From a virus, in the IMG/VR virus record IMGVR_UViG_3300046538_000194, positions 1 to 42,748 of that record: a stretch of DNA of 42,748 nt; one strand, 5' to 3'. The position numbers and the translations under genes were made by a program. This document shows, one piece after another, positions 1,800-22,592 of this stretch. Under the pieces are notes generated by a model, which worked only from the letters and a program-made list of their open reading frames with translations, had not been told where the DNA came from and made no database searches. Position 1 is the stretch's first letter; each line of letters begins with the position of its first letter.

Positions 1800-2090
1800 T
1801 CAGGCGGCGCGCTGGCCGGTGCTGGCGCGGTAGGTGGCGCTGCGGTGGTCTCCGCCGCCGCGGCGGTCGCCGTGGTCGCGTATCCACTTCTCGGCCTGGG
1901 CGACGTCGATGTGGTGGTAGAGCCGGCCGCGTCCGTCGCCGAGGTCGATGGGTGTGATCTTCCCGCGCTTGGCCCACTGCTTGATGGTGCCGGGCTGCCG
2001 GTCGACGACTTCCGCGGCTTGGTCGGCGGTGAGGAGGTGTTCGGGGTCGATCTGGTCGAGGGGCGGGAGCTGGTAGGGCTGGTAGCGCAC
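1800..2090 (-). CDS. MerR/excisionase-type helix-turn-helix protein
   Basis: A 96-residue protein with an HTH of the MerR/AlpA type: 'LLTADQAAEVVDRQPGTIKQWAKRGKI' followed by 'GDGRGRLYHHIDVAQAEKWIRDH', the usual recognition helix plus wing found in small excisionase-like and plasmid DNA-binding proteins. The C-terminus is basic and Gly/Arg-rich. The GTG start has GGAGG 7 nt upstream. It follows the TraB-like gene and the repeat array, so it may bind the array, control the packaging-side genes, or act as the recombination directionality factor for the integrase. I cannot choose between these. Confidence 0.75.
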   Translation of the reverse strand: MRYQPYQLPPLDQIDPEHLLTADQAAEVVDRQPGTIKQWAKRGKITPIDLGDGRGRLYHHIDVAQAEKWIRDHGDRRGGGDHRSATYRASTGQRAA

Positions 2091-2144: not shown

Positions 2145-2325
2145 GTGTGCATGTGGGCAGAGTTGTTCTGCTGGTAACGGAGGGTACAGTCCGCCGGTGA
2201 CGCGGGCAAGCGACCTCGGTGTGGGCGTGGTGCGGCCCCGACGCACGGGGTGGACGTCGGGGCCGCGGAGGTGCGCACAGCACCACCAGCAGGGTGGCAC
2301 AGGGCACTGACAGCCGAACGGGGAT

Positions 2326-2481
2326 CTGTCGCCTTCGCCTGTCGCCCATCCTGTCGTCTGTCGTGTCGCTGTCGCTGTCTGTCGCCTGTCGCCTTCCAGG
2401 TCGGATGGGGTGCGACAGGTGTCCCGACAGCTTGCAGCCCCTCCCGAAGGAGGGGCTGACAGGCGATGCGACAGGCGACAG
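2326..2481. repeat. Heptamer array CTGTCGC / GCGACAG
   Basis: Exact CTGTCGC copies start at 2326, 2339, 2369, 2379 and 2386. Near copies start at 2351, 2358 and 2363. Inverted exact copies (GCGACAG) start at 2412, 2468 and 2475, with near copies at 2424 and 2456. The left cluster is in one orientation, the right cluster in the other, with the terminator hairpin between them. The last copy ends 2 nt before the traB-like stop codon. The heptamer occurs singly elsewhere in this GC-rich genome, but nowhere did I see such a cluster. Confidence 0.85.
2435..2458 (-). terminator. Terminator of the traB-like gene
   Basis: Perfect 10-bp stem (2435-2444 with 2449-2458). Read on the minus strand it closes with a C(UUCG)G tetraloop, among the most stable RNA loops. 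It lies about 25 nt after the translocase stop codon, inside the heptamer array. Confidence 0.8.
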
Positions 2482-2483
2482 GG

Positions 2484-4586
2484 TCAGCCCTCTGTGGGCG
2501 GCTCGGGCGCGTGCCGGCGGTGAACGTACCTGGCCTTGCTGCCCTCCCCGACCCGGACGACCTCGCCCATCTCCGCCCACTGCTTGAGCCACCCGACGAT
2601 GGTCTGTCGGGTCGTGCCGAAGTCAGGCTTGAGCTCGCGCTCCAGGGCCGACGCGCCGGTGCCCTCGGGGCCGGCCACCAGGATCAGCATGAGGGCGGCC
2701 TGCCGGGCGTCGGGCTGCTCGGGTTGGGGCGTCTCGCGGCCGGTCCGCCAGGTCGACGGGTCCGCCCAGTCGACGCCTTCGGGCCTGTCCTGGTCGTTGC
2801 CGGGCTCGGCCTCCCACATGGCTTCCAGCTCGGCGACGCTCGGCGTCCTCGGCTTGTCCCATCCGGCGGTGGCCTTCCACTCGCGGGGCGTGTTCGCCTC
2901 GCTGACATCGGTGTTCGCCGTGTTCGCCGTGTTCGCCGCCCACAGATGCCCGCACCGCTCCAGCAGCCATCGGTCGGCGTAGGCGTCGCCTGCGGCCTCC
3001 AGGGACGGCTTGTCGAGGGTCGGCCGGCGGGCGGATGTCTCGGCGGTGATCTCCTCGATCATGGTGGGCAGGATCCGCCACTGCTGAGCCTTGTTGGGCT
3101 GCTTGCCCTCGACACCAACCAGCAGCGACCCGGGCCCGGCGAAGGAGTCCTCGGCCTTGAGCGCGCGCCAGCCGAAGAGGTGCCCCAGCTCGGAGTCCTC
3201 GTTGGCGCCCGTGGCGACCCGGTTGGACGCCATCTTCCGCAGGACCGGGTCGCTCAGGATGTCCTGGGTGACCCGCAGCATGGACAGAATCGTGCGGATC
3301 GCCATCGCGCGGGCGATGCGTGTCACCTCGGACACGCCCGCCATCACGGCCCGCGCTTCCCTGGTCAGGGTCACCTCGGCGCCCTCGTCCATGATGATGA
3401 CGATCTCCGGGACGTCGGGGCCGACCGGCAGGATGTCGGTGTTCGCGGCACGCATGCGGTCCTGGTAGACGACCTTGCGGCGCTTGGCGATCCGCACGGC
3501 GGCCTTGACCATCAGGGTGGCCTCCGCCGGGGTCGACGCGACCCAGTCGACGCCGGGCACGGGGATGTCGGCGCCCGCCCACCTGCTGCCCTCGCTGCCC
3601 TGCTGAGCCTCGCGCCAGGCGTGCAGCCACGGCAGGCCGATCGAGCCGCCGTTGAGGTCGATGACCCAGACCAGGGTGTCGGTGGTGCGGGCGAGGTGCG
3701 CGATCACGGTGTGCAGCCAGTTGGTCTTTCCGGTGCCGGTGGGCCCGGTGACGATGGTGGACGCCTGACGCAGGTCGATGCCTGCGACGTCACCAGCCGA
3801 CAGCAGCCCGGCCGGGACCAGGTTGTTGACGGTCAGGTCGGACAGGTCATCCATCGGGAAGGGGATCTCCAGGCCAGCGGTGCTGGCGGTCTGCACCTGA
3901 ATCAGGACCCGCCTGCGGGAGACACCGGGCATGACCTGCACGCCACCCCCGAGGGGAACGTCCAGGTCGGAGGCGAGAGCATCAGCGTGGTCGGCGACGG
4001 ACCGACGAGTGATGCCGCCGGGGAGCTCCACCTCCACGGTGTACCCGAACCCGGACTTCCACTGCTCGATGGCGGGGATGGCGGCGCCCTCGATGCGGCA
4101 GATCCGGTGCAGGCGGTCAATCCATTCCTCGGCGAGTTGGCGGCGTGCGCCGATCAGCAGCATGGTGCGGCGCCTCTCCTGTTCGACCTCCTCGTGGGCG
4201 GCGAAGCCAGCGGCAGCGGTGCCAGCCACCAGGCCAGCGACGGCGAGGGCGCCGCCGTTCTCCCAGGTCCAGGGCCCGCCGTGGGACAGGGCCCAGGAGG
4301 TCCAGCCGCCGGCGGCCATCCAGCAGGAGGCGCGGAAGGTCAGGGTGGCGGACGTCAGGCGGCGCTTGAGGCCTGCGGCGATGGTGCCCATGGCTCCGGC
4401 GGCGCCAGCGGCGAGGGCCCATCCGGCGGGCATTCCGGCGGCGTGGCCGACGGCAGCGCAGGTCAGGGCGCCGCCGACGCCGTTGATGGTGCCGGTGAGC
4501 ACGCCGTGTCCGGCCTTCCAGTCCACCGGTGGCGTGGTCTTCTTGGTGCTCGCACGGCTGCGGCCGGCGGTCTCGGTCATGCTCAT
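2484..4586 (-). CDS. FtsK/SpoIIIE-like DNA translocase, TraB type
   Basis: A 700-residue translocase. Residues 25-135 hold hydrophobic segments that could insert in the membrane. The motor has Walker A GPTGTGKT (281-288) and Walker B EIVIIMDE (394-401), followed by the arginine-rich segment typical of FtsK motors. An acidic/Pro-rich linker with an ANTANTANT stretch follows. The last 80 residues form a winged helix (TTRQTIVGWLKQWAEMGEVVR), as in the DNA-recognition gamma domain of FtsK and TraB. In Streptomyces plasmids TraB alone moves double-stranded DNA between hyphae, recognising short clt repeats. Neighbouring Spd-like genes and a repeat array directly 3' support a conjugative role over cell-division FtsK. 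The start has AGGAG 9 nt upstream. A phage-specific DNA-pumping role is the alternative. Confidence 0.88.
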   Translation of the reverse strand: MSMTETAGRSRASTKKTTPPVDWKAGHGVLTGTINGVGGALTCAAVGHAAGMPAGWALAAGAAGAMGTIAAGLKRRLTSATLTFRASCWMAAGGWTSWALSHGGPWTWENGGALAVAGLVAGTAAAGFAAHEEVEQERRRTMLLIGARRQLAEEWIDRLHRICRIEGAAIPAIEQWKSGFGYTVEVELPGGITRRSVADHADALASDLDVPLGGGVQVMPGVSRRRVLIQVQTASTAGLEIPFPMDDLSDLTVNNLVPAGLLSAGDVAGIDLRQASTIVTGPTGTGKTNWLHTVIAHLARTTDTLVWVIDLNGGSIGLPWLHAWREAQQGSEGSRWAGADIPVPGVDWVASTPAEATLMVKAAVRIAKRRKVVYQDRMRAANTDILPVGPDVPEIVIIMDEGAEVTLTREARAVMAGVSEVTRIARAMAIRTILSMLRVTQDILSDPVLRKMASNRVATGANEDSELGHLFGWRALKAEDSFAGPGSLLVGVEGKQPNKAQQWRILPTMIEEITAETSARRPTLDKPSLEAAGDAYADRWLLERCGHLWAANTANTANTDVSEANTPREWKATAGWDKPRTPSVAELEAMWEAEPGNDQDRPEGVDWADPSTWRTGRETPQPEQPDARQAALMLILVAGPEGTGASALERELKPDFGTTRQTIVGWLKQWAEMGEVVRVGEGSKARYVHRRHAPEPPTEG

Positions 4587-4633
4587 CAGGGTGTCTCCTC
4601 AGTCACACAGCGTCGATAGGGCGGGGCCAGGCC

Positions 4634-4663
4634 CGGCAGGTGACACGGGCGTGTCACCTGCCG
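4634..4663 (-). terminator. Hairpin between the two transfer genes
   Basis: Perfect 13-bp stem (4634-4646 with 4651-4663) with a GGGC loop, 9 nt after the stop codon of the upstream Spd-like gene and before the traB-like gene. It may attenuate expression of the translocase. Confidence 0.75.
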
Positions 4664-4671
4664 CGAACTGG

Positions 4672-5031
4672 TCAGACGTTCCACTTGCGCTCGGACTCCA
4701 GGCCGTTGCGCGGGTTCTCGACGCGCTCGATGTCCTCGGAGTGGGCCCGGCGGTAGGTGTGGCCGACCTGCTCCAGTGCGGCGACCACGCGGTTCATCGC
4801 CACGTAGCCCTCGCCGATCTCCTCGACGACGGTGGGGTCAACGGGCAGGGTCTCGGCGGACTTCTCCGCGAGGACCCGCAGCACGTCCTGGATGGTCTGG
4901 AAGGCCACCGGCAGGTCGTCGACCAGGGTCTGGAACTCGGCCATCACCTCGGGGTCGAAGGTGGTGGCGGCCTGCAGCATCACGTCGGCGGCGGCGGACA
5001 GGGAGAACGCGGGGGTGGTGGTGTCGCTCAT
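4672..5031 (-). CDS. Possible internal in-frame gene (119 aa)
   Basis: An in-frame ATG at 5031 inside the Spd-like gene is preceded by GGAG with 5-nt spacing, a near ideal ribosome binding site that is unnecessary within a coding region. The product would be an acidic helical 119-residue protein starting MSDTTTPAF, echoing the MSDT start of the full protein. This suggests that two formerly separate genes have fused, or that both products are made. Confidence 0.45.
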   Translation of the reverse strand: MSDTTTPAFSLSAAADVMLQAATTFDPEVMAEFQTLVDDLPVAFQTIQDVLRVLAEKSAETLPVDPTVVEEIGEGYVAMNRVVAALEQVGHTYRRAHSEDIERVENPRNGLESERKWNV

Positions 5032-6105
5032 GGCTTCTCCAGTGACGGGGTTGTGGCGGCGGCCGATCAGGGTGCTGATGGCGCGTCGGAGTGCGGGCGA
5101 GGTGGGGGCGGTGACCTGCTCGGACGCCCGGTTGGGGTCGTGGACGACCTCGGCGGGGACGGGCACGGTGCCCGGGGCGGCCTTGCCGAGGATCGCCGCG
5201 TCGCGCTTGTCGCGGACCTTGCGCGCGCGATCGGTCAGCCGCTGCCAGGTGCGGCGCATGTGGGAGCCGACCTTGCCGGGGTGACGCCAGTTGCCGACCA
5301 GGGCGGAGCCCAGGCCGACCGCTGCGGTCAGCAGTCCGGCGGTGGCCAGGCGGGCACGATGCCGCAGGGCGGAGCGCCGCAGGGCCTTGCCCTGCGGCTT
5401 GGACAGGCTGCTCGGCGAGGTGGGGGGACGCTCGACGGCGGGGCTGACGCCAGCCTCCCGCTGGGCCTTGGCACGGCCCTTCTCCCGGCGCTGCTCGGTC
5501 TTCTGCAGCCGACTGTTCGCGGCCTTGTTCGCGAGGTGGCGAACACGGCCGAGCGGACCATGAACACCCTGATCACCAGCTGTTCGCCGAGCGGCGGCCG
5601 GGGCGTCCTGGCTCTTGCTCGCGGAGGCCTTTGTCGGGCGGGTGTTCGCGCGCTTGTGGAGGCTGTTCGCGCGCGGCGCCTCCGCCGACCTGGCGGACGC
5701 GTTCGGGGTGCCGCCCTGCGCGGTCGAGCGGTGGCCGGCGGCGCGGGTGGCAGCTCGCAGCCCGCTGGCGGCACCTTGCCGCGGCACCGCACCGACCGAA
5801 CCGTGACGGGCGGGGGCCTGGGCAGCAGCCTTCCCCTTCCCCGGCTTGGCCGCAGACCTACGGCGGCGCACGGCCGCCCCCAGGGCGACAGCCCCGGCGG
5901 TGCCCGCGACGGCCGCGAGCGCCACCGGGCCGCCCAGTGTGGCCAGTCCGCCGGCGGCCGTGCCGACGACGTTGACGCCGGCGATGGCGAGCGGGATGCC
6001 GGGAAGCGCTGCGTTGGTCGGAGCCTGAGCCGCAGGCGCCTTCGGGGACTGCGGTGCCTGCAGCTCAGGCTCGGCCTGGACGGCGACAGTGATCGTGTCG
6101 GACAT
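4672..6105 (-). CDS. Spd-like membrane/basic protein of the transfer module
   Basis: A 477-residue protein in three parts. Residues 33-80 are a hydrophobic hairpin (two likely membrane spans). A long Lys/Arg/Ala/Pro-rich region follows, then a third hydrophobic segment (LATAGLLTAAVGLGSALVG, about 265-285). The C-terminal 119 residues are acidic and helical (FDPEVMAEF...NPRNGLESERKWNV). That C-terminal part begins with MSDTTT and has its own Shine-Dalgarno, so it may also be made separately. Membrane proteins of this kind accompany TraB in Streptomyces plasmids as Spd 'spread' proteins, thought to move DNA across septa. I assign it by context and topology, not by a diagnostic motif. The start has AGGAG 7 nt upstream. 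Confidence 0.65.
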   Translation of the reverse strand: MSDTITVAVQAEPELQAPQSPKAPAAQAPTNAALPGIPLAIAGVNVVGTAAGGLATLGGPVALAAVAGTAGAVALGAAVRRRRSAAKPGKGKAAAQAPARHGSVGAVPRQGAASGLRAATRAAGHRSTAQGGTPNASARSAEAPRANSLHKRANTRPTKASASKSQDAPAAARRTAGDQGVHGPLGRVRHLANKAANSRLQKTEQRREKGRAKAQREAGVSPAVERPPTSPSSLSKPQGKALRRSALRHRARLATAGLLTAAVGLGSALVGNWRHPGKVGSHMRRTWQRLTDRARKVRDKRDAAILGKAAPGTVPVPAEVVHDPNRASEQVTAPTSPALRRAISTLIGRRHNPVTGEAMSDTTTPAFSLSAAADVMLQAATTFDPEVMAEFQTLVDDLPVAFQTIQDVLRVLAEKSAETLPVDPTVVEEIGEGYVAMNRVVAALEQVGHTYRRAHSEDIERVENPRNGLESERKWNV

Positions 6106-6130
6106 GCGGAGACTCCTGTCTTGGGAGAAG

Positions 6131-6158
6131 GCCGGGCCGCCCGGTGGGGCGGCCCGGC
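6131..6158 (-). terminator. Hairpin after the SpdB-like gene
   Basis: Perfect 12-bp stem (6131-6142 with 6147-6158) and a 4-nt loop, 11 nt after the SpdB-like stop. It is the third gene-separating hairpin of the transfer module. Confidence 0.75.
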
Positions 6159-6169
6159 TGCTGGGCGGC

Positions 6170-7135
6170 CTACAGGTAGCCCTGCGTGCCCTGGAGGTTC
6201 TTGCGCTCCCTGCGGACCGTTGCCGCCACGGAGTCCTTGTTCGCCGTCGGCACCCGCCGGAGGATGCTGGCGACCACCTCCGGGTTGCTGGCGCCCTGGG
6301 ACAGGTGCTGCCGGGCCAGATCGGCGATGCTCGGGCCTGTTCGGACGAGTTCCCGATCGGTGTTCGCGCCGCTCACCGGCACCGTGTTCGGGCGCTCGGG
6401 CTCGGCCTCCGGCTCGTCGTCGATGACGTCGATCGGCTGCTCGGTGTTCGCCGAGGCCTGGACGGCGATGGTTCGCACGGCCTGGTTGGGCATGAGCTCG
6501 GAGATCTGGGACCGGATCTGCTCGGCTGCCAGGAGCTCGGCTGCGGCGCGCTGCTCGGACCGTGCGACCTGGCGGCGGACGCTGGCGACGGCAAGCTGGG
6601 CGTTGGCCTTGGACACCTCGGCTGCGACCCACGCGGCGTCAGCCTCGGACAGGTCGCGGTCGACGAACCGCATGATCCCCATCCACAGCACCTTCGCGAA
6701 CAGGGACACGAAGGCGCCGACGACACCCAGAGCCACTCCGCTGCTGCCGCCACCGAGCATGCCGTGCCAGAAGATGGCGCCCATCGTGCAGACCAGCAGG
6801 GCCCACCCGAGCCGCTTGGAGAACGCCCGCTTCGGCGGGTCGTTGCGGGCGAGCCACTCCAGCACGATGTTCACCAGCCACGCGGCGTCGAAGACGATGG
6901 CGGCGGCGAAGCCGATCCCGCCGTGGAGGAGGCTGCCGATGCTGTAGGTCGACCAGACGATGGCTGCCACGGTGAGGCCCATGACCAGGGCGCTGGCGAA
7001 GCGGAGGCCGATGACATCCCAGTCGGCGGGCACCTGCGGGGTGCGGACGGTGTAGCTCTGCGGGACCTGGTTGGTGTGGCCGTCGATGGTGTGCGACACC
7101 ATCCGCGTGCGGCGCTCGGTGCGGAACTTGATCAC
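6170..7135 (-). CDS. SpdB-like conjugative transfer membrane protein
   Basis: A 321-residue membrane protein. From residue 35 it has four to five hydrophobic spans (FASALVMGLTVAAIVWSTY, GIGFAAAIVFDAAWLVNIVL, RLGWALLVCTMGAIFWHG, GVALGVVGAFVSLFAKVLWM), then an Ala/Glu/Arg-rich coiled region and a C-terminal HTH-like segment (SIADLARQHLSQGASNPEVVASILRRVP). This combination of clustered spans plus a cytoplasmic helical tail matches SpdB-type proteins of Streptomyces AICEs and plasmids, which are membrane partners of TraB. The GTG start has AGGAGG 6 nt upstream. In-frame sequence further upstream is ignored because it lacks an SD and a membrane-protein composition. Confidence 0.72.
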   Translation of the reverse strand: MIKFRTERRTRMVSHTIDGHTNQVPQSYTVRTPQVPADWDVIGLRFASALVMGLTVAAIVWSTYSIGSLLHGGIGFAAAIVFDAAWLVNIVLEWLARNDPPKRAFSKRLGWALLVCTMGAIFWHGMLGGGSSGVALGVVGAFVSLFAKVLWMGIMRFVDRDLSEADAAWVAAEVSKANAQLAVASVRRQVARSEQRAAAELLAAEQIRSQISELMPNQAVRTIAVQASANTEQPIDVIDDEPEAEPERPNTVPVSGANTDRELVRTGPSIADLARQHLSQGASNPEVVASILRRVPTANKDSVAATVRRERKNLQGTQGYL

Positions 7136-7199
7136 GGTGCCCTCCTGGGCGAGTGCGGGTTGCCGAAGTCGATGTCCAAGGCCTGAGTGCCTGCGGCTT

Positions 7200-7222
7200 C
7201 CGCACCGCGGTGGGCGGTGCGG
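7200..7222 (-). other. Hairpin in the leader of the SpdB-like gene
   Basis: 9-bp stem (7200-7208 with 7214-7222), 5-nt loop, between the 36-aa gene and the SpdB-like start. Possible attenuator or mRNA stability element. Confidence 0.4.
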
Positions 7223-7264
7223 CACCGTCCGGCCGTCAGCGGCCGAGATGGGTGGTGGGTTGGG

Positions 7265-7375
7265 TCATCCGCGTCGGCTGCAGATGCGGCAGACCGGCGC
7301 TTCGGGGTAGTTCTCGATCTGGCAGCTGTTGCAGCGCCAGGCCAGGCGGGCGAGCGCTTCCACAAGGGCTCGCAT
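7265..7375 (-). CDS. 36-aa zinc-ribbon miniprotein
   Basis: A very short gene starting at ATG 7375 and ending TGA at 7265. The product has two CxxC pairs, CNSC (residues 15-18) and CRIC (29-32), spaced like a rubredoxin-type zinc knuckle and preceded by an amphipathic helix (MRALVEALARLAW). It begins 5 nt after the stop of the 55-aa gene, which implies translational coupling; its own SD is weak. Tiny proteins in this position are common in Streptomyces transfer operons; the role is unknown. Confidence 0.65.
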   Translation of the reverse strand: MRALVEALARLAWRCNSCQIENYPEAPVCRICSRRG

Positions 7376-7380
7376 GGCGG

Positions 7381-7548
7381 CTACCGACCGAGAAGCGCGT
7401 CGGCGGCGCGTCGGCCGCGGGGGATGAGGGGCTGCGGCGAGTCGGACGTCTCCGTGAAGGCGCGGTGCGCCTCGATCTCGAACTGGACGTCGGTCTCGTT
7501 GCGTGCCTGGTGGTGCTCGTGGCTTGCCGTGTGGCTACTCTGGTCCAT
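7381..7548 (-). CDS. Small hypothetical protein heading the transfer operon
   Basis: A 55-residue hydrophilic protein (MDQSSHTASHEHHQARNETD..., ending IPRGRRAADALLGR), with a His-rich start and an acidic 'DVQFEIEAHRAF' core. GAGAGGG about 5 nt upstream fixes the ATG at 7548; the longer upstream reading has no SD. It is the first gene after the divergent promoter region at 7549-7683 and is followed by the zinc-ribbon miniprotein. Function not recognised. Confidence 0.6.
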   Translation of the reverse strand: MDQSSHTASHEHHQARNETDVQFEIEAHRAFTETSDSPQPLIPRGRRAADALLGR

Positions 7549-7587
7549 GACCTGCCCTCTCTGGCTTAGCGGCATGAGGGTGGGGCT

Positions 7588-7620
7588 GCCCCGGCCGGTG
7601 TGTGAGAGCCCGGCCGGGGC
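7588..7620. other. Strong hairpin in the transfer-operon leader
   Basis: Perfect 11-bp stem (7588-7598 with 7610-7620), 11-nt loop, followed by GTTTTG on the plus strand. It is oriented like an intrinsic terminator for rightward transcription, but lies in the 5' leader of the leftward operon. Either it blocks antisense entry or it acts as a leader attenuator. Confidence 0.5.
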
Positions 7621-7655
7621 GTTTTGCTGTCCCGGTTTCAAAGCTAGCCCGTGGG

Positions 7656-7669
7656 TTGCCATATGGCAA
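7656..7669. promoter_or_regulatory. Perfect 14-bp palindrome, operator candidate
   Basis: TTGCCATATGGCAA is a perfect palindrome in the intergenic region between the leftward transfer operon and the rightward HTH gene, 15 nt upstream of that gene's start. Its position suits an operator for the HTH protein or another dimeric repressor controlling both directions. Confidence 0.65.
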
Positions 7670-7683
7670 GGCGGGCGGAGAGA

Positions 7684-7938
7684 ATGGTGGCCATGACCGA
7701 CGGAGGAGGGCCTGATTTGGTGACGTTCAGGGAGTGCGCCCGCCGAGTCGTAGCCGAAGGCATCGCCCCGTCGATGACCCATCAGCGCGTCTCGCAGCTA
7801 CACAAGGCCGACCCGGAGTTCCCGCCGACCCAGGTGATCGGACGATCGCGGGTGGTGGACTGGGTCGCGGCGAAGCCGTACTTCGCCGCACATGCAGAGA
7901 GGGCTGCGGCTCGGGACCGGCGCCGCCGGTCGGAGTAG
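7684..7938 (+). CDS. AlpA-like helix-turn-helix protein
   Basis: An 84-residue DNA-binding protein on the opposite strand to the transfer operon. 'VTFRECARRVVAEGIAPSMTHQRVSQLHKADPEFPP' is an HTH of the AlpA/excisionase type, followed by 'QVIGRSRVVDWVAAKPYF', the typical wing and C-terminal helix. The end is Arg-rich. The ATG at 7684 is chosen (GGAG close upstream); the ATG at 7693 is possible. Likely regulator of the divergent transfer operon, acting through the palindrome at 7656-7669; alternatively an excisionase. Confidence 0.7.
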   Translation: MVAMTDGGGPDLVTFRECARRVVAEGIAPSMTHQRVSQLHKADPEFPPTQVIGRSRVVDWVAAKPYFAAHAERAAARDRRRRSE

Positions 7939-10471: not shown

Positions 10472-10758
10472 CGGGATGCCTCGGCGGCGATGGGGACAGC
10501 GAGGGTGTCGGGTGCGTTGTCGCAGATGGCTATCCGGCGGCCGGCGTCGGTCCGGGCGATCACGCCCGTCGGTCGGTGGCAGGTCAGGCCCGCGGCGTAC
10601 AGGTCGGCGGCGGTGCGTGCGGTGGGCCTGGCGGCCTGCCAGCAGGCGGAGCAGGGGATGAGCGCTATGACGGTGGCGTCGCCGGTGAACATCTCGCGGT
10701 CGACGAAGGCGTTCGCGGCCTGGGCGACCCAGATGCGGGAGCCGAGGGGGAGTGTCAT
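10468..10758 (-). CDS. Small hypothetical early protein
   Basis: 96 residues (MTLPLGSRIWVAQAANAFVDREMFTG...), with Cys residues in 'IPCSACW' and two more near the middle and C-terminus that could form one metal site. The start overlaps the helicase stop (ATGA) and the end overlaps the next start (GTGA). Function unknown. Confidence 0.6.
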   Translation of the reverse strand: MTLPLGSRIWVAQAANAFVDREMFTGDATVIALIPCSACWQAARPTARTAADLYAAGLTCHRPTGVIARTDAGRRIAICDNAPDTLAVPIAAEASR

Positions 10759-12026
10759 CGCGCACCTGCCGACGGCGCGGGCACGTAGCTGACCCACGGC
10801 CAGTCGGTGCCCTGCTTGATGTGGGTGGGCCAGGACCGCTCGTCTCGGGCGCCGCGCCAGGGGACGACCACGCGGGCGCGCTCATTGACGGCGGACACCT
10901 CGTCATCGACGGGGCGGATGCCGTAGCCGAACTCGGGCCAGCGCATCCAGAGCGAGCTGCCGAGCGGGCGCAGGTTGCGGTGCTGGCCGAAGCCGTTGTG
11001 GTGCGGGGCGTGGGCCTCCATGATCACGGCGCATCCGGCGGCGGCACGCGCCTCGTCCACCACGGCGGAGACCTTGCGGGCCAGCTCCTCACTGTTCGGG
11101 TCACCGGCGTGCAGCCGGTACACGGGGCCGATGACGAGCATGTCGGGCTTGATGCGCTCGACCCGGCGGAGCATCCAGGCCCGATCCTTCGGCCGGGTCA
11201 GGTCGACACCCGCGGGCTGGCACTCGACGAACAGCCGGCCGCGGGGCACCGGGCGGCCGGCGCGGGCTGCGGCACCGGTGAGCGGCGACAGCTTGCGCCG
11301 GGTCATGGACTCGCCGTTCTCGCAGTCGAGGATCAGCACCTTGAAGGGGTCGACCGGGCGGTGGGTGAACGGGTGCAGACCGGCGGCGCCGCAGATGGCC
11401 ATCTGGCGGATCAGCGTCGACTTGCCGCCGCCCTCCGAGGCGGTGAGGATCAGCCGGTCGCCGCGCTCCAGCAGGCCGGGCACCAGCCAGTCGTAGTGGT
11501 CCTCGACGGCGAGGAAGTCGTGCAGGTCCATAACGGGCAGGTCGGAGTTCTCCTGGCCGCGGTCGCGGACCTCGCGGGCCCAGGCGACGGCATGCTCGGC
11601 GAGCTCGGAGGCGTCGCCCTCGCCTGCCTGGTAGCCGGCCTGGGCGATGCGGGTCCCTAGCGTCACCAGGTCGCGGCGCTGGGCGCGGTCGCGGACGATC
11701 TCGGCGTACCACTCGGCGTTCGCCGCGGTGGGCACGGCCTCCAGCAGCTGGGAGATGTAGACGGGGCCGCCGACGCGGGCCAGGTTTCCGGCCTTCTCCA
11801 GGTAGTCGACCATCGTGCGGGCGTCGACCGGCTGGCTGGCGGCGGCCATGGCGGCCACGGCGCCGAGGATCAGTCCGTGGCCGGGTCGGTAGAAGTCGTT
11901 CGGGCCGAGCATGTCGAGGACGTCGCGGGCTGCATCGGCGGACAGGAGGCAGGCGCCGAGGACGGCCTGCTCTGCCTGGATGTCGTGCGGGGCCATCCGC
12001 TCCAGGGCGGTCATGTCGTCGGTCAC
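10755..12026 (-). CDS. DnaB-like replicative helicase / RepA-type ATPase
   Basis: A 423-residue protein. Residues 10-115 match the DnaB N-terminal domain (PHDIQAEQAVLGACLLSADAARDVLDML...FYRPGHGLILGAVAAM). The rest is a RecA-like ATPase with Walker A ASEGGGKST (about 196-204), KVLILDCENGES, and a Walker B-like DMLVIGP. The motor resembles the RepA/AAA_25 class more than canonical DnaB. It probably unwinds phage DNA, loaded by the initiator encoded just upstream; the two genes overlap (GTGA). An ATG 12 nt downstream of the chosen GTG is an alternative start. Confidence 0.85.
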   Translation of the reverse strand: MTDDMTALERMAPHDIQAEQAVLGACLLSADAARDVLDMLGPNDFYRPGHGLILGAVAAMAAASQPVDARTMVDYLEKAGNLARVGGPVYISQLLEAVPTAANAEWYAEIVRDRAQRRDLVTLGTRIAQAGYQAGEGDASELAEHAVAWAREVRDRGQENSDLPVMDLHDFLAVEDHYDWLVPGLLERGDRLILTASEGGGKSTLIRQMAICGAAGLHPFTHRPVDPFKVLILDCENGESMTRRKLSPLTGAAARAGRPVPRGRLFVECQPAGVDLTRPKDRAWMLRRVERIKPDMLVIGPVYRLHAGDPNSEELARKVSAVVDEARAAAGCAVIMEAHAPHHNGFGQHRNLRPLGSSLWMRWPEFGYGIRPVDDEVSAVNERARVVVPWRGARDERSWPTHIKQGTDWPWVSYVPAPSAGAR

Positions 12027-12814
12027 TGGTACATCCATTCGTTCTGCGGGTCGGTGCCGGTGGGCGCCTGGGGCCTGCGGGCAGGTGCGTAGTCCTGCGC
12101 GCGGCTCACCCAGGTGCGCCAAGCGGCGGTCCAGTCCTTGAAGGTCGAGCCCTTGGCCCGGTGGAAGTCGAGGAAGCGCTCGGTCTCAGCCGCGACGCGG
12201 TCCCTCTGGATGCCCTTTTCGGCGGCCCACTCGTACATGCGGTCGGTCACGGCGATGTGGTCCGGGGCACCGGTGGCGCGCGGGCGGGGAGGCTTCGCCG
12301 ACCCCTCTCTAAGAGGGTTGGGGTTGGGGTTGGGAGCACTCGTTACGGGGGCGTTAGTAACGCTGTTACGCGAGACGTTACGTTCCGAGCCCTCTTCAGC
12401 CTCGCGCCGGCGGTCCCGAAACGCCTTCTGACGTGCAGCGTTCTTGTCGCGCTCGGCGGTGATCTGGGCGGCCGACTTCTGGTAGTCGAGGTAGTCGTGG
12501 ACCCGGTAGCCGCCCTCGACCTCGTCCCACAGGCCCGCCTTGACGAGTCGTTCGGCGACGAATCGCGCTACAGCCGGGGTGACGTCCGTGTTACTCGGGG
12601 CGTTAGTAACGCCGTTACGGTCCGCGTGGGCTACGGCCTCGGCGGCGTCCTCGAAGTCGAGCAGCCGCATGGCCGCCTTGCGCGGGATGAATCCGTCGCT
12701 GAGGTTGCGGTTGCACCACGCCAGCCCGGCCACCCAGAGCGCGATGCCCAGCGATCCGGCGGCGTCGAACTTGGGGTGATCGTAGAAGTCGTCACTGATG
12801 CGAACCCAGGCCAT
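12023..12814 (-). CDS. Phage replication initiator (lambda O / DnaD-like role)
   Basis: A 263-residue protein. Its N-terminus (MAWVRISDDFYDHPKFDAAG...CNRNLSDGFIPRKAA) is the winged-helix start typical of actinophage and prophage replication proteins. A basic helical middle follows (AERDKNAARQKAFRDRRREAEE), then a Pro/Asn-rich linker and a helical C-terminal part that probably contacts the helicase encoded next. The coding sequence contains two nearly identical about 30-bp DNA repeats with internal dyads, as in lambda O, where the origin lies inside the initiator gene. The repeats encode the peptide VTNAP twice in the same frame. Confidence 0.78.
   Translation of the reverse strand: MAWVRISDDFYDHPKFDAAGSLGIALWVAGLAWCNRNLSDGFIPRKAAMRLLDFEDAAEAVAHADRNGVTNAPSNTDVTPAVARFVAERLVKAGLWDEVEGGYRVHDYLDYQKSAAQITAERDKNAARQKAFRDRRREAEEGSERNVSRNSVTNAPVTSAPNPNPNPLREGSAKPPRPRATGAPDHIAVTDRMYEWAAEKGIQRDRVAAETERFLDFHRAKGSTFKDWTAAWRTWVSRAQDYAPARRPQAPTGTDPQNEWMYQ
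12315..12334 (+). repeat. (GGGGTT)n telomere-like microrepeat
   Basis: Three to four G-runs (GGGTTGGGGTTGGGGTTGGG) on the plus strand inside the initiator gene, encoding NPNPNP on the minus strand, directly beside the first origin-type repeat. The pattern can form a G-quadruplex. Confidence 0.6.
12341..12382. repeat. Origin-type repeat A inside the initiator gene
   Basis: Contains GTTACG at 12342, 12365 and 12377 and a perfect palindrome GCGTTA-G-TAACGC (12351-12363). The 23-nt core starting at 12348 is repeated with one mismatch at 12597, exactly 249 nt away. Iteron-like; likely binding site of the initiator itself. Confidence 0.65.
12589..12619. repeat. Origin-type repeat B inside the initiator gene
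   Basis: Second copy of the GTTAC ... GGGGCGTTAGTAACGC . GTTACG unit, with the same 13-bp palindrome (12600-12612). Only one core position differs from repeat A. Confidence 0.65.
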
Positions 12815-12842
12815 GTGTGGCTTCTCTCGGTCAGTCGGTGGT

Positions 12843-12883
12843 CACCCGGGGCGGAGGAGCAGGGCCCACCCCGCCCCGGGGTG
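12843..12883 (-). terminator. Hairpin upstream of the initiator gene
   Basis: Arms at 12843-12854 and 12871-12883 pair over 12 bp with one bulged G. It lies in the only sizeable gap (76 bp) of the replication operon, after the 125-aa gene and before the initiator gene; possible attenuator. Confidence 0.55.
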
Positions 12884-12890
12884 CTGATGG

Positions 12891-13268
12891 TTAGGCGCGG
12901 CCGGTCTCGGGCTGCGCGGTGCGGCCGGGCTGGATGGCCTCGATCTCGAACAGCGGATCCATGTCCAGCGGTGCGGCCTTGAGCTCGCGGGCCTTGCCGC
13001 GGCGGGCGCCGTCGTAGCAGGGCGGGCACCAGGCGATCAGGTCGGCCGGCGGCGGGAAGGCGTCGGAGACGTCCCTGGAGGCCGCCAGCAGTTTGATGTG
13101 GCCCTTCTTGTTGGCCAGGTAGCCGCCGTGGACGTGGCCGCAGCGGCCCTCGGTCTTGGTGTGCTTCTGGCCGCACTCGCCCTCGCACTGGCACCGGTGG
13201 CCAGCCGAAGCCATGACGGGCTCCCAGATCTCGGCGCCGACCATCGGCGCGCGCTCGGTGACGGTCAT
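12891..13268 (-). CDS. Cys/His-rich zinc protein, HNH-like
   Basis: A 125-residue protein: HRCQCEGECGQKH, then CGHVHGG, then WCPPCYDGAR, i.e. at least six Cys and several His placed as in a degenerate HNH or treble-clef zinc fold. No clear DH catalytic pair is visible, so nuclease activity is doubtful. This type of protein is common in actinophage replication regions. The ATG overlaps the upstream stop (ATGA); the TAA stop is unusual for this genome. Confidence 0.6.
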   Translation of the reverse strand: MTVTERAPMVGAEIWEPVMASAGHRCQCEGECGQKHTKTEGRCGHVHGGYLANKKGHIKLLAASRDVSDAFPPPADLIAWCPPCYDGARRGKARELKAAPLDMDPLFEIEAIQPGRTAQPETGRA

Positions 13269-13621
13269 CGCGGTACCTCCGCATACTCCGTGGTGGTGGG
13301 CTTGACGCTGCCGAACCGGGGCCGCCTCTCAGGCCAGCCGTAGGTGGACCAGCGGAAGATGGTTCGCTCGTTGACGCCGGTGCGGCGTCCGATCTCCCGG
13401 TGGCCCAGCTCGCCGCGCAGGCCGAGGATCCGGGCGGCCTGGTACTGCTCCTGCCAGGCGAGCTGCTGCGGGAGGCCGTTGACGGCCCGGTCGACGGCGG
13501 TCCAGTCGACGGTCTCGCCGTCGATGAAGGCCGACGTGTCGGTGGTCGAGGCGTAGACCCACGAGCGGTCAGTGACGATCGGCCGAGCGCTGTAGGTGAT
13601 GCTCCCGGTGAGCCTGGTCAT
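13265..13621 (-). CDS. Helix-turn-helix early protein
   Basis: 118 residues, with an HTH near the C-terminus (ELGHREIGRRTGVNERTIFRWSTYGWP) resembling sigma-70 region 4-like or resolvase-like DNA-binding helices. The N-terminal part carries 'GETVDWTAVDRAVNGLPQ', seen in actinobacterial plasmid/phage regulators. ATG 13621 overlaps the upstream stop (ATGA). Likely a DNA-binding accessory of replication or an early regulator. Confidence 0.65.
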   Translation of the reverse strand: MTRLTGSITYSARPIVTDRSWVYASTTDTSAFIDGETVDWTAVDRAVNGLPQQLAWQEQYQAARILGLRGELGHREIGRRTGVNERTIFRWSTYGWPERRPRFGSVKPTTTEYAEVPR

Positions 13622-19244: not shown

Positions 19245-20680
19245 TGCGCCCAGAGAGAGCCGTGGTCCTCGTCCGGATTTCGGACGACCGTGAAGGTGAA
19301 GCGAAAGGCGTGGCGCGCCAGCAGCAGGACTGCCGACGCCACGCACACACTCTGAGCTGGGAAATCGGCGAGATCGTGGTCGAGAACGACACGTCCGCCT
19401 TCAAGCGCCGCAAGGTTCGGCTCCCCGATGGCAGCACCGGCCTGCGAGTCATCCGCCCAGGGTTCCGCCGCGTCCTGGACATGCTGGCCTCCGGTGAGGC
19501 CGATGGCCTCATCGCCTACGACCTCGACCGCACCTGCCGCGACCCACGCGACCTCGAAGACCTCATCGACGTCGTGGAGGCGCGCCGAGTGCCCGTCACG
19601 TCCGTGTCCGGCTCCCTGCGGCTGGCCAACGACGCGGACATCACGATGGCCCGCGTCATGGTCGCCGTGGCCAACAAGAGCTCCCGAGACACGTCCCGCC
19701 GTGTCGCCCGGAAGCACGAAGAACTCGCCGAGTCCGGCAAGCCCGGAGGCGGCGGCCGGCGGCCCTACGGCTACGACCAGAACGGCATGACGGTCCGGGA
19801 GGACGAGGCCGCCATCGTCCGGGAGATGCTCGCCTGGGCGCTCGACGGCTGGTCACTCAGGCAGATCATCGGCGAGCTCAACGCCCGTCTGGATGCCGAC
19901 CCGGATGCGCCGGGGTTGCGACCGGCCTACTCGGAGCGATGGTCCACCCGATCGGTGTCCGCCATCTTGCGGGGGCCGCGCATCGCTGGCCTCCGGCGCT
20001 TCCGTGGCGAGGTCGTCGGCGAGGCCGCATGGCCGGCCATCGTCGACCGCGACGACTGGGAACGGGTGCAGTCGGGCCTGGAGTCTCGCGCGGCCGGCAC
20101 GAAGAACCAGTTGGCCAGGTGGCTTACCGGGGTACTCCAATGCGGCCTATGCGGGCATCAGATGTACGGATGGACTGGTCACGGTGGCCCGCGGTACTGG
20201 TGTGCAACGCCACGTGGCGGCTGCGGGAAGATCGCCGTCAATGTGGGGCACGTCGAGGCGGAGATCGAGCGCCAAGTGCTGGAGTACCTGTCCAAGCCGG
20301 GTGTCCTCGCTGGACTGCGTGGCGCCTACTCCAGTGAGACTGTGGCGGATGCCCGTGCTGGCCTTGCAGCAGACGAGCAGCAGCTGAAGGAGCTCGCGAC
20401 GATGTGGGCTCAGCGTCAGATCTCCTTCGCGGAGTACGGCGAGGCGCGCCGCATCATCTCGGACCGCATCGCTGCGTCCCGAGGGCTGGTGCGGTCATCC
20501 CTGCCCCAGACAGTGCGGATGCTGCTCGATGGGGATGTGCGGGCCGGGTGGGACAGGCTGACGCCGGCCGGGCGGCGCGACGTAGTACTGACGATCGTTG
20601 GCGGCTACCGGGTGGATCCGGCAAAAACGGGACGCCGTGTCTTCAACCCGGATCGCCTCGTACCACTGCCGCTCCAATAA
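19244..20680 (+). CDS. int: Large serine integrase
   Basis: A 478-residue large serine recombinase. The resolvase domain starts VVLVRIS with catalytic S13, and includes the acidic/Arg motif 'AYDLDRTCRDPRDLEDLID' (about 90-110). The recombinase domain starts at 'GRRPYGYD' (about 172). A zinc ribbon follows (CGLCG ... C ... C, about 305-330), then a helical coiled-coil region. Length and layout match R4/TG1-type Streptomyces integrases, which recombine attP with a chromosomal attB without host factors. No SD precedes ATG 19244, so the message may be leaderless or start elsewhere; GTG 19262 with GAGAGAG upstream is an alternative that would trim the first strand. Confidence 0.95.
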   Translation: MRPERAVVLVRISDDREGEAKGVARQQQDCRRHAHTLSWEIGEIVVENDTSAFKRRKVRLPDGSTGLRVIRPGFRRVLDMLASGEADGLIAYDLDRTCRDPRDLEDLIDVVEARRVPVTSVSGSLRLANDADITMARVMVAVANKSSRDTSRRVARKHEELAESGKPGGGGRRPYGYDQNGMTVREDEAAIVREMLAWALDGWSLRQIIGELNARLDADPDAPGLRPAYSERWSTRSVSAILRGPRIAGLRRFRGEVVGEAAWPAIVDRDDWERVQSGLESRAAGTKNQLARWLTGVLQCGLCGHQMYGWTGHGGPRYWCATPRGGCGKIAVNVGHVEAEIERQVLEYLSKPGVLAGLRGAYSSETVADARAGLAADEQQLKELATMWAQRQISFAEYGEARRIISDRIAASRGLVRSSLPQTVRMLLDGDVRAGWDRLTPAGRRDVVLTIVGGYRVDPAKTGRRVFNPDRLVPLPLQ

Positions 20681-20683
20681 GCA

Positions 20684-20717
20684 CGGACCCCAGGTCGCCG
20701 TGGCGGCCCGGGGTCCG
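20684..20717 (+). terminator. Integrase terminator
   Basis: 8-bp outer stem (20684-20691 with 20710-20717) and an inner GC-rich stem, 3 nt after the integrase stop codon. Confidence 0.85.
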
Positions 20718-20840
20718 GCTCTACCCCGCCGCTCGCCTGGGAGCGTCGCAACGGGGAGTCTGCTCTCTTCTTACCCAGAAGTAGACAGCTGCCTCATTTC
20801 TGATGCAGACATTTGATCATGGCGCGGCCAGCGTAAGCGA
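20718..20840 (+). promoter_or_regulatory. Leader of the third XRE gene
   Basis: A relatively AT-rich stretch between the integrase terminator and the XRE start. It contains GTAGACA at 20781-20787, the same heptamer as in the immunity region. A promoter here is likely but no clear -10 is visible. Confidence 0.35.
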
Positions 20841-21086
20841 GTGCCCGCCGAACAACCACCTGACTGGCTGCTTCAACAGCGCCGCGACATCGGTCGGCGC
20901 ATTCGGCAGGCGCGCGAACAGCGTGGGCTCTCGCAGGAGCAGCTCGCCCATACGGCGGGTATCTCCCGTCAGACCATGTACCGAGCCGAGCTCGGGACAC
21001 ACTCCACCGGCATCGATGCGCTGCTGAAGATCGCCCGGGTCCTGGGCGTCTCGGTGGCCGAGCTCATGCCCAATGGCGAGGCTTGA
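20841..21086 (+). CDS. Small XRE-family regulator
   Basis: 81 residues that are nearly all HTH: 'IGRRIRQAREQRGLSQEQLAHTAGISRQTMYRAELGTHSTGIDALLKIARVLGVSVAELM', a textbook Cro/CI-type domain. GTG start with a weak SD. It is the second strong XRE regulator on this strand and lies after the integrase; its target may be its own leader or the immunity region, with which it shares GTAGACA. Confidence 0.78.
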   Translation: MPAEQPPDWLLQQRRDIGRRIRQAREQRGLSQEQLAHTAGISRQTMYRAELGTHSTGIDALLKIARVLGVSVAELMPNGEA

Positions 21087-21100
21087 GTCTCGCACCCCTG

Positions 21101-21123
21101 TACGCAGGCCAGGGGTCCTGCGG
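21101..21123. terminator. Terminator between convergent genes
   Basis: 7-bp stem (21101-21107 with 21117-21123) between the XRE gene and the leftward Cys-motif gene pair. Confidence 0.5.
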
Positions 21124-21125
21124 TT

Positions 21126-21320
21126 TCACCTCGACCGACGACGCCAGGTGTACGGCTCCAGGGCCGCGGTGATCGCCGCCTGGTAGTGGGCCGCCCAGCA
21201 GGCGGAGTCGGATATGCCGGCCTGGCAGTCCGCGCACTCGCCGCAGGGCTCGAAGTTGGCCAGGGTGGGCCGCGGCGGGCGGGCGCCTTCGGTCGGCTCG
21301 GCGCCGGCTGCCGCGGTCAT
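21126..21320 (-). CDS. Small Cys-motif protein 2
   Basis: 64 residues with 'FEPCGECADCQAGISDSACWAAHYQA', i.e. C-x2-C-x2-C plus a further Cys. ATG 21320 overlaps the stop of the gene before it (ATGA). The motif is a clear relative of that in the preceding gene, so the pair probably arose by duplication. Function unknown; a zinc-binding regulator or toxin-antitoxin-like pair are possibilities without further support. Confidence 0.58.
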   Translation of the reverse strand: MTAAAGAEPTEGARPPRPTLANFEPCGECADCQAGISDSACWAAHYQAAITAALEPYTWRRRSR

Positions 21321-21475
21321 CGCGGCGTCCTCGAGGACGAGCGGTCCAGGAAGTCCGAGTAGCAGTCGCCGGGCGCCGGGGTCTGGCCGGTTCCGGCCAC
21401 GCACCTCGAGCACCGGCCGCACGGCTGAGGCCACTTGGGTGCCAGTCTCGGTGGCTGCTGGGTACGGTGGTCCAT
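21317..21475 (-). CDS. Small Cys-motif protein 1
   Basis: 52 residues (MDHRTQQPPRLAPKWPQ, then PCGRCSRCVAGTGQTPAPGDCYSDFLD): C-x2-C-x2-C followed by a distant Cys, like the next gene. AAGGGG 5 nt upstream selects ATG 21475 over 21499. Divergent from the GntR gene and probably under its control through the repeats at 21552-21569. Confidence 0.58.
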   Translation of the reverse strand: MDHRTQQPPRLAPKWPQPCGRCSRCVAGTGQTPAPGDCYSDFLDRSSSRTPR

Positions 21476-21551
21476 GTCGACCCCTTTGCGGTCGTCCACG
21501 CCCCCGAGCTGCCGCCAGCGGCTGCGGGGGCTTTCCGCTGGCCAGAGTACT

Positions 21552-21569
21552 GCTATACAGCGCTATACA
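21552..21569. promoter_or_regulatory. Tandem GCTATACA, GntR operator candidate
   Basis: Two GCTATACA octamers, start to start 10 bp (21552 and 21562), one helical turn apart, in the AT-richer divergent region between the GntR gene and the Cys-motif pair. Spacing suits cooperative binding on one face of the helix. Confidence 0.6.
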
Positions 21570-21627
21570 CAGCAACGTGCAGCTATCCGGTCCTGCGTGC
21601 CGCCGTACAGCGCCGCACGCTGGAGGT

Positions 21628-21888
21628 ATGGACTCGGACCGCTCTGACCGCATCGACCCCGCGCGGCCCGTCTATGTCTACGTGCAGCTGGCCGACGACA
21701 TCGCCGATCAGATCGAGGCGGGCCGGCTGGCGCCCGGGGCGATGCTGCCGGCGGAGCGGGACCTTGCCGCCCAGTACGGCGTGGCGTACCTGACCGCGCG
21801 GCGTGCGGTGCGGGAGCTGCGCGGGCGGGGTCTGGTTGTGACGCTGCCCGGCAAAGGCACCTACGTGGCTGAGCTCCCCCAGGAATGA
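21628..21888 (+). CDS. GntR-family regulator, KorSA-like
   Basis: 86 residues comprising a GntR winged helix and little else: 'PVYVYVQLADDIADQIEAGRLAPGAMLPAERDLAAQYGVAYLTARRAVRELRGRGLVVTLPGKGTYVAE'. The missing effector domain is atypical for HutC/YtrA regulators, but the fold matches Streptomyces plasmid repressors such as KorSA and TraR that restrain transfer genes. GGAGG lies only 1 nt before ATG 21628, unusually close. It could repress the transfer module from a distance, though its candidate operator is only visible at its own promoter. Confidence 0.78.
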   Translation: MDSDRSDRIDPARPVYVYVQLADDIADQIEAGRLAPGAMLPAERDLAAQYGVAYLTARRAVRELRGRGLVVTLPGKGTYVAELPQE

Positions 21889-21894
21889 CGAAAT

Positions 21895-21926
21895 CGCCCC
21901 CTCCGGCCCGTAGGCCGGAGGGGGCG
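21895..21926. terminator. Bidirectional terminator
   Basis: Perfect 14-bp stem (21895-21908 with 21913-21926) with a CGTA loop between the rightward GntR gene and the end of the leftward late operon. Confidence 0.9.
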
Positions 21927-21932
21927 AGCGTG

Positions 21933-22592
21933 TCAGTGGCGGAGTCCGAGTAGGCCGCCGCCGTCGCTGGGGGACGGCTGGAGTGCGCCGTCGCGGCGGC
22001 AGATGAGCGCGTCAGGGTCGGCGGCGGGCGTCTCGAGGTGGTAGCCGTCCGGACAGGCCGGCCCGGGCGAGCCGTCCTTGCCATCGGCGCCGTTCTTCCC
22101 GTCGGCCCCGGCGGGTCCCTGCGGGCCGGGCGGCCCTGAGGGCCCGGCCTGGCCGTCCTGCCCGGCGGACCCCGGCTCGCCGGACGGTCCGGGGCTGCCC
22201 GCCTGGCCGGACGGTCCGGGAGACCCCGAAGCGCCCGGCTGGCCAGGACTACCGGTCCGCCCGGGCGGCCCAGCTGTGCCCGACGGGCCGGGACTCCCAG
22301 GCTCCCCCGGCCAGCCCTGCGGCCCCGGCGGGCCGGACGGTCCGGACGGCCCGGGGAGGCCGGCCACGCCCGGAGCCCCGGACGGACCCGCCACCGGCGT
22401 GCCTCCCAGCTGCCGCACCTGCTGAGCCAGGGCGTCCCGGGCGGCATTGGACTGCTGCAGCGACCCGCTCAGGCCGTGCAGGGTGGAGATCACCCACACC
22501 AGCAGGAGCACGATCATCGTCACCGTGAAGACGTACAGCGCCCCCTCTCGCCTGCGGCGCCGACGCACGGGCGCGTGTCTACTGGCGCTCAC
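21933..22592 (-). CDS. Membrane-anchored collagen-like protein
   Basis: 219 residues: Arg-rich cytoplasmic start, one membrane span (about 19-39), a short coiled-coil ([19 protein letters not shown]), then 37 uninterrupted Gly-X-Y triplets (69-179), and a C-terminal knob with two Cys (CPDGYH ... LICRRDG). The coiled coil can register a trimer, as in collagen-like phage proteins. Collagen repeats in phages are normally tail-fibre spacers; a membrane anchor and a position at the end of the lysis genes are unusual. Its start overlaps the preceding stop (GTGA). Confidence 0.8.

Follow-up and report, generated by a model that had tools for sequence, protein, structure and literature searches.

Gene content of the window

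The window (the whole stretch of DNA that was analysed, which is the entire IMG/VR virus record IMGVR_UViG_3300046538_000194 of 42,748 bases) carries a block of genes, g6 to g11, placed between the replication genes and the HNH/terminase genes of a phage and oriented as both. In this block g6 encodes a TraB/FtsK-type DNA translocase, g7 its partner and g8 a Spd-like multi-pass membrane protein; there are also two small genes (g9 and g10), a divergent regulator (g11) and, directly 3′ of g6, an array of short repeats that we discuss as a candidate clt site (Table 1). A sequence-only reading of the window had listed these genes as a conjugation module within a complete temperate phage genome, and gene calling found all of them in place (g9 as a weak call). 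Its remark on a differing gene style also holds: genes of the module are separated by 64-129 bp gaps with perfect hairpins, whereas genes of the replication operon overlap by 4 bp.

In the genome as a whole 61 genes were called, almost all on the minus strand with the exception of the integrase/immunity region. Profile searches identified a full siphophage set around the block (TerL, portal, protease, capsid, tail, tape measure, endolysin and a RecE-like gene); the integrase and repressor-type genes, together with those for terminase, portal, capsid, tail and lysis, make it a temperate tailed phage. The order HNH(g2)-g1-g61-TerL(g60) is uninterrupted in relatives; hence the window closes end to end, as a circularly permuted and not a truncated contig. 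The window is the complete genome of a temperate phage; its host was probably a Streptomyces-like soil bacterium. Among isolated phages no TerL exceeded 60% identity (the closest among the matches listed, Rhodococcus REQ1, had 42%), and by megablast the first 25 kb had no counterpart among isolated phages. No plasmid Rep or partition genes were recognised in the gene list, of which part of the open reading frames were profiled; a serine integrase is present instead. We rejected the identification of the whole element as an actinomycete integrative conjugative element (AICE), given its virion genes, phage-type helicase and serine integrase.

Phylogeny and predicted structure of the translocase

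The Walker A (GPTGTGKT, residue 281) and Walker B (IVIIMDE, residue 395) motifs of g6 are intact. The protein matched PHROG 31069, ‘FtsK/SpoIIIE-like’, with E 8e-82; the match to Pfam family PF01580 was sub-threshold only, as for most of its relatives, and a profile of the g6 family retrieved FtsK (2iuu) and TcpA (6o1x) from PDB. An AlphaFold2 model built from 16 sequences (mean predicted local distance difference test score, pLDDT, 62.8; the single-sequence model was poor) predicted a C-terminal winged helix at residues 627-689 (order H-H-H-E-E, pLDDT about 83-90) with a putative recognition helix at about 658-673. A Foldseek search with this model gave TcpA as the top match and the FtsK motor next. 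The N-terminus has one clear hydrophobic segment, 112-130; helices in this part were predicted at low to moderate confidence.

The nearest relatives of g6, 63-69% identical, are transfer genes of AICEs. These nearest relatives came from 10 genomes out of 70 in the genus to which Streptomyces sp. NRRL S-350 belongs, all in AICE-type loci with the gene order GntR, DUF2637-like membrane gene, g7 homologue, translocase, prim-pol and, usually, RepAM. Tra, g7 and prim-pol were present in 10/10 elements with the nearest relatives and RepAM in 9/10; loci with a covered right end had Xis and a tyrosine integrase as well.

In the maximum likelihood tree g6 is joined to the ten AICE Tra proteins at 100/100; it is sister to the ten and not nested within them. 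Support was 100/99 for a wider plasmid/AICE/phage clade (28 rows) that includes g6; chromosomal FtsK, EccC and the majority of the other phage translocases lie outside it. The tree did not resolve the join to pIJ101 Tra itself. Plasmids (Frankia pFQ12 and several Streptomyces plasmids) and a small number of phages (Hiyaavirus, P1312 and pZL12) also carry relatives. The phage members of the clade occupy about three or four separate places, which suggests repeated capture. The phylogeny supports g6 as an AICE/plasmid-type Tra protein; the sequence-only reading had named in advance, as placements that would tell against it, a grouping with chromosomal FtsK or with a phage packaging family, and the tree shows neither.

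Since some viruses use FtsK/HerA-type motors for DNA packaging, one could think of g6 as a packaging ATPase; however, this phage has a standard TerL, a portal and terminase-associated genes, and g6 groups with conjugation proteins. This explanation is already contradicted, and we give it next to no weight.

A clt-like array that covaries with the predicted recognition helix

The array 3′ of g6 is the top-scoring repeat cluster in the genome: its 12 TGTCG/CGACA copies fall within 165 bp, in comparison with 5 copies in the best 165-bp stretch elsewhere in the genome and a maximum of 6 in 300 Markov genomes. Its score was above that of every one of the 56 remaining gene 3′-ends, and as a single strand it folds strongly (z -6.8). 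Equivalent arrays were present at the same place in all ten AICE relatives. Translocase 3′-ends stood out by their repeats against other gene 3′-ends of the same loci in the AICEs (p=9e-8) and also for 24 translocases found at the corresponding slot of related phages (p=1e-11); in two phages the repeats, CCGCACA, equal the core of the clt repeat that was published for pJV1, CCGCACA[C/G][C/G] (PMC3583192). The experimentally defined clt of pWTY27 overlaps with the 3′-end of tra and with the 159 bp beyond; the short direct repeats in it are bound by TraA; in TraB of pSVH1, helix 3 of the C-terminal winged helix recognises 8-bp repeats (PMC3583192). We characterized the array as a clt-like site and a candidate docking site for g6. 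The sequence-only reading stated that Streptomyces conjugative elements need only TraB plus clt for double-stranded DNA transfer but did not mention this array; the clt-like site beside g6 would supply that part.

The 3′-ends of chromosomal FtsK and EccC carry no array, an observation that bears on another explanation of g6. Phage genes ftsK, parB and ssgA were suggested to manipulate Streptomyces development (PMC10117723), and PHROGs files the g6 family under host takeover; thus, the translocase could segregate or position phage or prophage DNA, or manipulate host septation or development. We consider it unlikely, as it would leave unexplained the AICE-type clade, the constant g7, the Spd-like gene and the cognate 3′ array.

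In the window and the ten AICEs the predicted recognition helix falls into three classes. The helix TTRQTI (window, L189, L184 and L012) is paired with CGACA, the helix TRRPV[LI]QN (five elements) with TGACA, and the helix TTRPTI (L011 and L183) with ACAGGC-rich arrays. The first two classes and their motifs were completely separated in all nine elements (exact p 0.008). In a tree built from a stretch largely excluding the recognition helix, the helix classes cut across relationship, with about four switches, each accompanied by a motif change. The helix and the array travel as a unit, as binding would predict; this is not proof of binding.

Other repeats were seen as well. The Streptomyces mobaraensis plasmid pDSM40587 (L006) has two different TraB/FtsK-type translocases (11172-13280 and 20013-22193), followed by CTGACA x6 and GCAACA x5. 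AICE relatives L182-L188 contain 10-14 repeats of CCGCTAC type (CGCTACC in L184) about 4-7 kb downstream of the translocase, perhaps replication iterons. Outside the array of the window, CTGTCGC occurs 12:0 on the coding strand (rank 8 among 2875 heptamers); we do not claim a genome-wide polarity of the array motif, since the codon pair CTG-TCG accounts for most of this bias, and the own motifs of other phages did not show it.

Partner proteins and the mosaic origin of the block

Protein g7 has hydrophobic N-terminal segments, a long basic low-complexity middle part and a conserved helical C-terminal domain ending in H..D..R...PR...E..W, with invariant residues P83, H117, D120, R123, P127, R128, E134 and W137 (fragment numbering). 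This domain is encoded directly upstream of a window-type translocase in 10/10 aligned loci and in 17/17 further genomic loci; it is duplicated in pDSM40587, L195 and L196, and it recurs in pZL12. That g7 adjoins the translocase upstream in every locus examined is the best argument that it acts with the pump. No Pfam family matched g7, and its C-terminal domain gave coiled-coil-like PDB matches only.

In g8, alignment revealed a conserved N-terminal segment, MK.RTE.RTR..HTIDG, and a conserved C-terminal segment. Its closest relatives are in the prophage L219 (60% identity, beside a different translocase) and in the plasmid-like contig L220, which has ParA (66-68%); on plasmid contigs L195 and L221 its relatives accompany homologues of g7 and g6. 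The position of g8 is that of the DUF2637 protein in the AICE L012.

Thus, from the profile and structure searches that the sequence-only reading had called for, g6 emerged as FtsK/TcpA-type, but g8 gave no DUF2637 match and g7 neither a Pfam family nor a convincing PDB family. Of the two Spd-like proteins supposed there, g8 keeps the label on architecture and position, whereas by homology g7 is the dedicated partner of the translocases of this family and no second Spd protein. The supposed acquisition of the module as a unit has to be restricted as well. The block is a mosaic, as g6, g7 and the array are of AICE type but the closest relatives of g8 are on a prophage and a plasmid-like contig, making g8 a protein of phage/plasmid type.

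One could also regard the block as an AICE fragment that was captured recently and does not function, or as a chimera of the assembly; in favour of this, a single phage contig with this close translocase type was found. On the other hand, the Walker motifs and all reading frames are intact, g6 is a sister of the AICE genes rather than one of them, the flanks keep the position and order seen in related phages, g8 itself is of phage/plasmid type, and no short-repeat cluster of the genome is stronger than the array. We find such an origin very improbable.

The same slot in related phages

For the slot we compared the 26 viral contigs related by TerL that extend 9 kb or more upstream of this gene. 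An FtsK/TraB-type translocase preceded the HNH gene in 14 of them; among the remaining 12, those examined mostly had Spd-like membrane genes in the slot. The slot translocases belong to several subfamilies of the tree, and most have a 3′ motif of their own (CTAGCA, CGAAACC, CAGTGA, AGGTCTG or CCGTGA). Searches of isolated phages with three slot translocase types found nothing for two and one weak match (Gilgamesh) for the third. Slot-wide repeat maxima did not separate phages with a translocase from those without (p 0.74); such maxima are uninformative, because repeats occur also inside coding linkers, and only the comparison of 3′-ends is informative. Judged from these contigs, the slot content of the window is not unusual for the phage group, in which other FtsK/TraB-type translocases or Spd-like cassettes are common. 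A pump-plus-repeats cassette is exchanged at a fixed place and is therefore a property of the group; the window holds the AICE version.

Spd-like genes of the slot have dense short DNA repeats inside coding linkers (37 genes versus 310 others, p=1.5e-9; examples in Table 1). For several genes these repeats lie on both strands or in more than one frame, and they recall the sps sites that were reported from within spdA genes (PMC4170104). The phage of contig L075, in which no translocase was detected, has an intergenic ACACTGA/TCAGTGT array upstream of HNH (7003-7223).

The slot bears on the main rival of intercellular transfer, namely that the cassette moves replicating phage DNA through cross-walls to compartments of the same mycelium before lysis, not between mating hyphae. 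The location between replication and packaging genes with the same direction of transcription, the retention of the cassette in the same slot by related phages, and the presence of Spd-like membrane genes even where no translocase was found would all agree with it, and the same machine and array would serve. Against it stand the divergent regulator, which has a probable operator of its own, and the AICE ancestry; both indicate separate control, as in conjugative elements. We hold intramycelial spread to be doubtful, if the most serious competitor.

Comparison with known systems

AICE transfer regions of Streptomyces/Kitasatospora type (Tra, Spd and clt; e.g. L011, L012 and L182-L189) resemble the window in having the translocase at the identity given above, an adjacent g7 homologue, and a 3′ array whose motif and recognition helix are related to those of the window. 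Unlike the window, they lack virion genes and carry prim-pol/RepAM and a tyrosine integrase; the window combines full virion genes with a serine integrase and the replication set of a phage, and its g8 is not of the AICE DUF2637 type.

The plasmid pZL12 (phage ZL12) is reportedly a conjugative plasmid-phage of Streptomyces, so the combination of phage and conjugation is not new in kind. Like the window, it is a phage genome with a homologous series of membrane gene, g7 and translocase (73c-72c-71c; pZL12.72c is the g7 homologue and pZL12.71c the g6 homologue); however, it is a 90-kb plasmid prophage with ParAB, and its translocase is only about 27% identical. Hiyaavirus phages (Galactica, Hiyaa and Keanu) and Thermobifida phage P1312 have FtsK-like genes in the same translocase superclade as g6, with a g7-like gene upstream in those examined, Galactica and P1312; they are phages of other types with much larger genomes, 31-35% identity and a weak or no 3′ array. 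TraB of pSVH1 and TraA of pWTY27 combine an FtsK-like motor with a C-terminal domain binding clt repeats, as predicted for g6, but are of a different subfamily; binding and transfer were demonstrated for those two, while g6 is known here from sequence. TcpA of pCW3 (6o1x), the best structural match, is a coupling protein of a conjugation system of type IV secretion kind from Clostridium. New here are the AICE-type capture, the covariation of array and helix, and the group-wide slot.

Regulator and other features

The palindrome TTGCCATATGGCAA, a probable operator, overlaps the -35-like hexamer of g11. In loci with the exact palindrome it was located upstream of the g11 homologue in all seven (7/7) other homologues found; a diverged homologue in L022 has TTGCCAATTGGCAA in its place. 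Homologues of g11 adjoin membrane cassettes in L060, L022 and L336. There was no Pfam or PHROG match to g11, which is probably an autoregulated control switch. Small helix-turn-helix (HTH) genes similar to g5 occupy its position in related phages.

The 8-mer GCGAACAC has nine copies in the genome, eight on the same strand and all within g6 (linker and body), g7 and g8 (2890-6444); it is an unexplained second motif and partly codes for Ala-Asn-Thr repeats. Near the integrase, g38 (21628-21888) encodes a stand-alone GntR-type HTH protein, in part 37-46% identical to GntR regulators beside AICE tra regions. An Rfam search found nothing; a weak PADLOC match to mads_8, in the P-loop only, was not taken as defence.

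Table 1. Positions of features in the window and, where a contig is named, in other viral contigs
Feature	Position	Strand	Basis or remark
g5, MerR/excisionase-like HTH	1800..2090	-	PF13411, PHROG 2474; just past array
Candidate clt array	2301..2484		12 TGTCG/CGACA copies, both orientations, around hairpin
g6, TraB/FtsK-type DNA translocase, 700 aa	2484..4586	-	PHROG 31069, PDB profiles, motifs, AlphaFold2/Foldseek, tree
Perfect 14-bp inverted repeat	4634..4663		between g7 and g6
g7, translocase partner, 477 aa	4672..6105	-	conserved adjacency, alignment
Perfect 12-bp inverted repeat	6131..6158		between g8 and g7
g8, Spd-like multi-pass membrane protein, 321 aa	6170..7135	-	alignment, hydropathy, neighbourhood
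g9, possible 32-aa CxxC...CxxC zinc-ribbon-like reading frame	7265..7363	-	weak call
g10, small protein, 55 aa, first gene of block	7381..7548	-	no family (Pfam, PHROG)
Palindrome TTGCCATATGGCAA, probable operator	7656..7669		overlaps -35-like hexamer of g11
g11, divergent small HTH-like regulator	7720..7938	+	homologues with same operator upstream
DnaB-like helicase	10755-12026		replication gene
Serine integrase	19310-20680		
TTGCCATATGGCAA with g11-like HTH	L060 (3916-3929), L254, L261, L282, L299, L315, L336		viral contigs
Spd-like genes with linker repeats	L055 5620-6414; L060 4442-5353; L032 5733-6692; L081 1076-1927; L015 3950-5173		

Proposed function of the block

Taken together, the block is best explained, with a little better than an even chance in our estimate, as a double-stranded DNA conjugation cassette of the AICE/Streptomyces-plasmid kind that works in intercellular DNA transfer of a temperate phage. 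By its winged helix, g6 would attach to the excised or replicating circular phage genome at the 3′ array, the candidate clt; it may assemble as a membrane-anchored hexameric pump and form a pore, with g7 as an obligate partner, and g8 would assist DNA passage across the membrane and cross-walls. Intact duplex could thus be pumped into a neighbouring hypha without lysis, where the serine integrase can install it; the block would probably be controlled by g11 acting on its palindrome.

Several observations weigh against this explanation. The recognition helix adjoins the array, so linked recombination alone could yield part of the covariation. No Pfam model, DUF2637 included, matched g8, and a match to the SpdB/DUF2637 family was not obtained. 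No array was found directly 3′ of the translocases of Galactica, NBC_01177 and pZL12. Finally, pattern scans of IMG/VR (the all-translocase alignment was too diverse to use as a query in the contig search) detected no other contig with the close g6 type.

One could speculate, more tentatively, that within the actinobacterial temperate phages a whole group, known here only from prophages and metagenome contigs, retains an exchangeable slot for conjugation, which each phage fills with one of several distantly related TraB/FtsK-type pumps, matching repeats and Spd-like membrane proteins, and that their genomes spread through or between hyphae as naked duplex beside the virion route.

If the block does work in conjugation, such a phage would have two horizontal routes, by virion and by conjugation, and in actinomycetes the border between phage and conjugative element would be a boundary of modules, not of classes. 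The 3′ array would be a concrete clt candidate, and the pairing of helix and motif a simple, testable binding code. A specific function would be offered for actinophage FtsK genes, and pumps missed by PF01580 may be undercounted in surveys of AICEs and phages.

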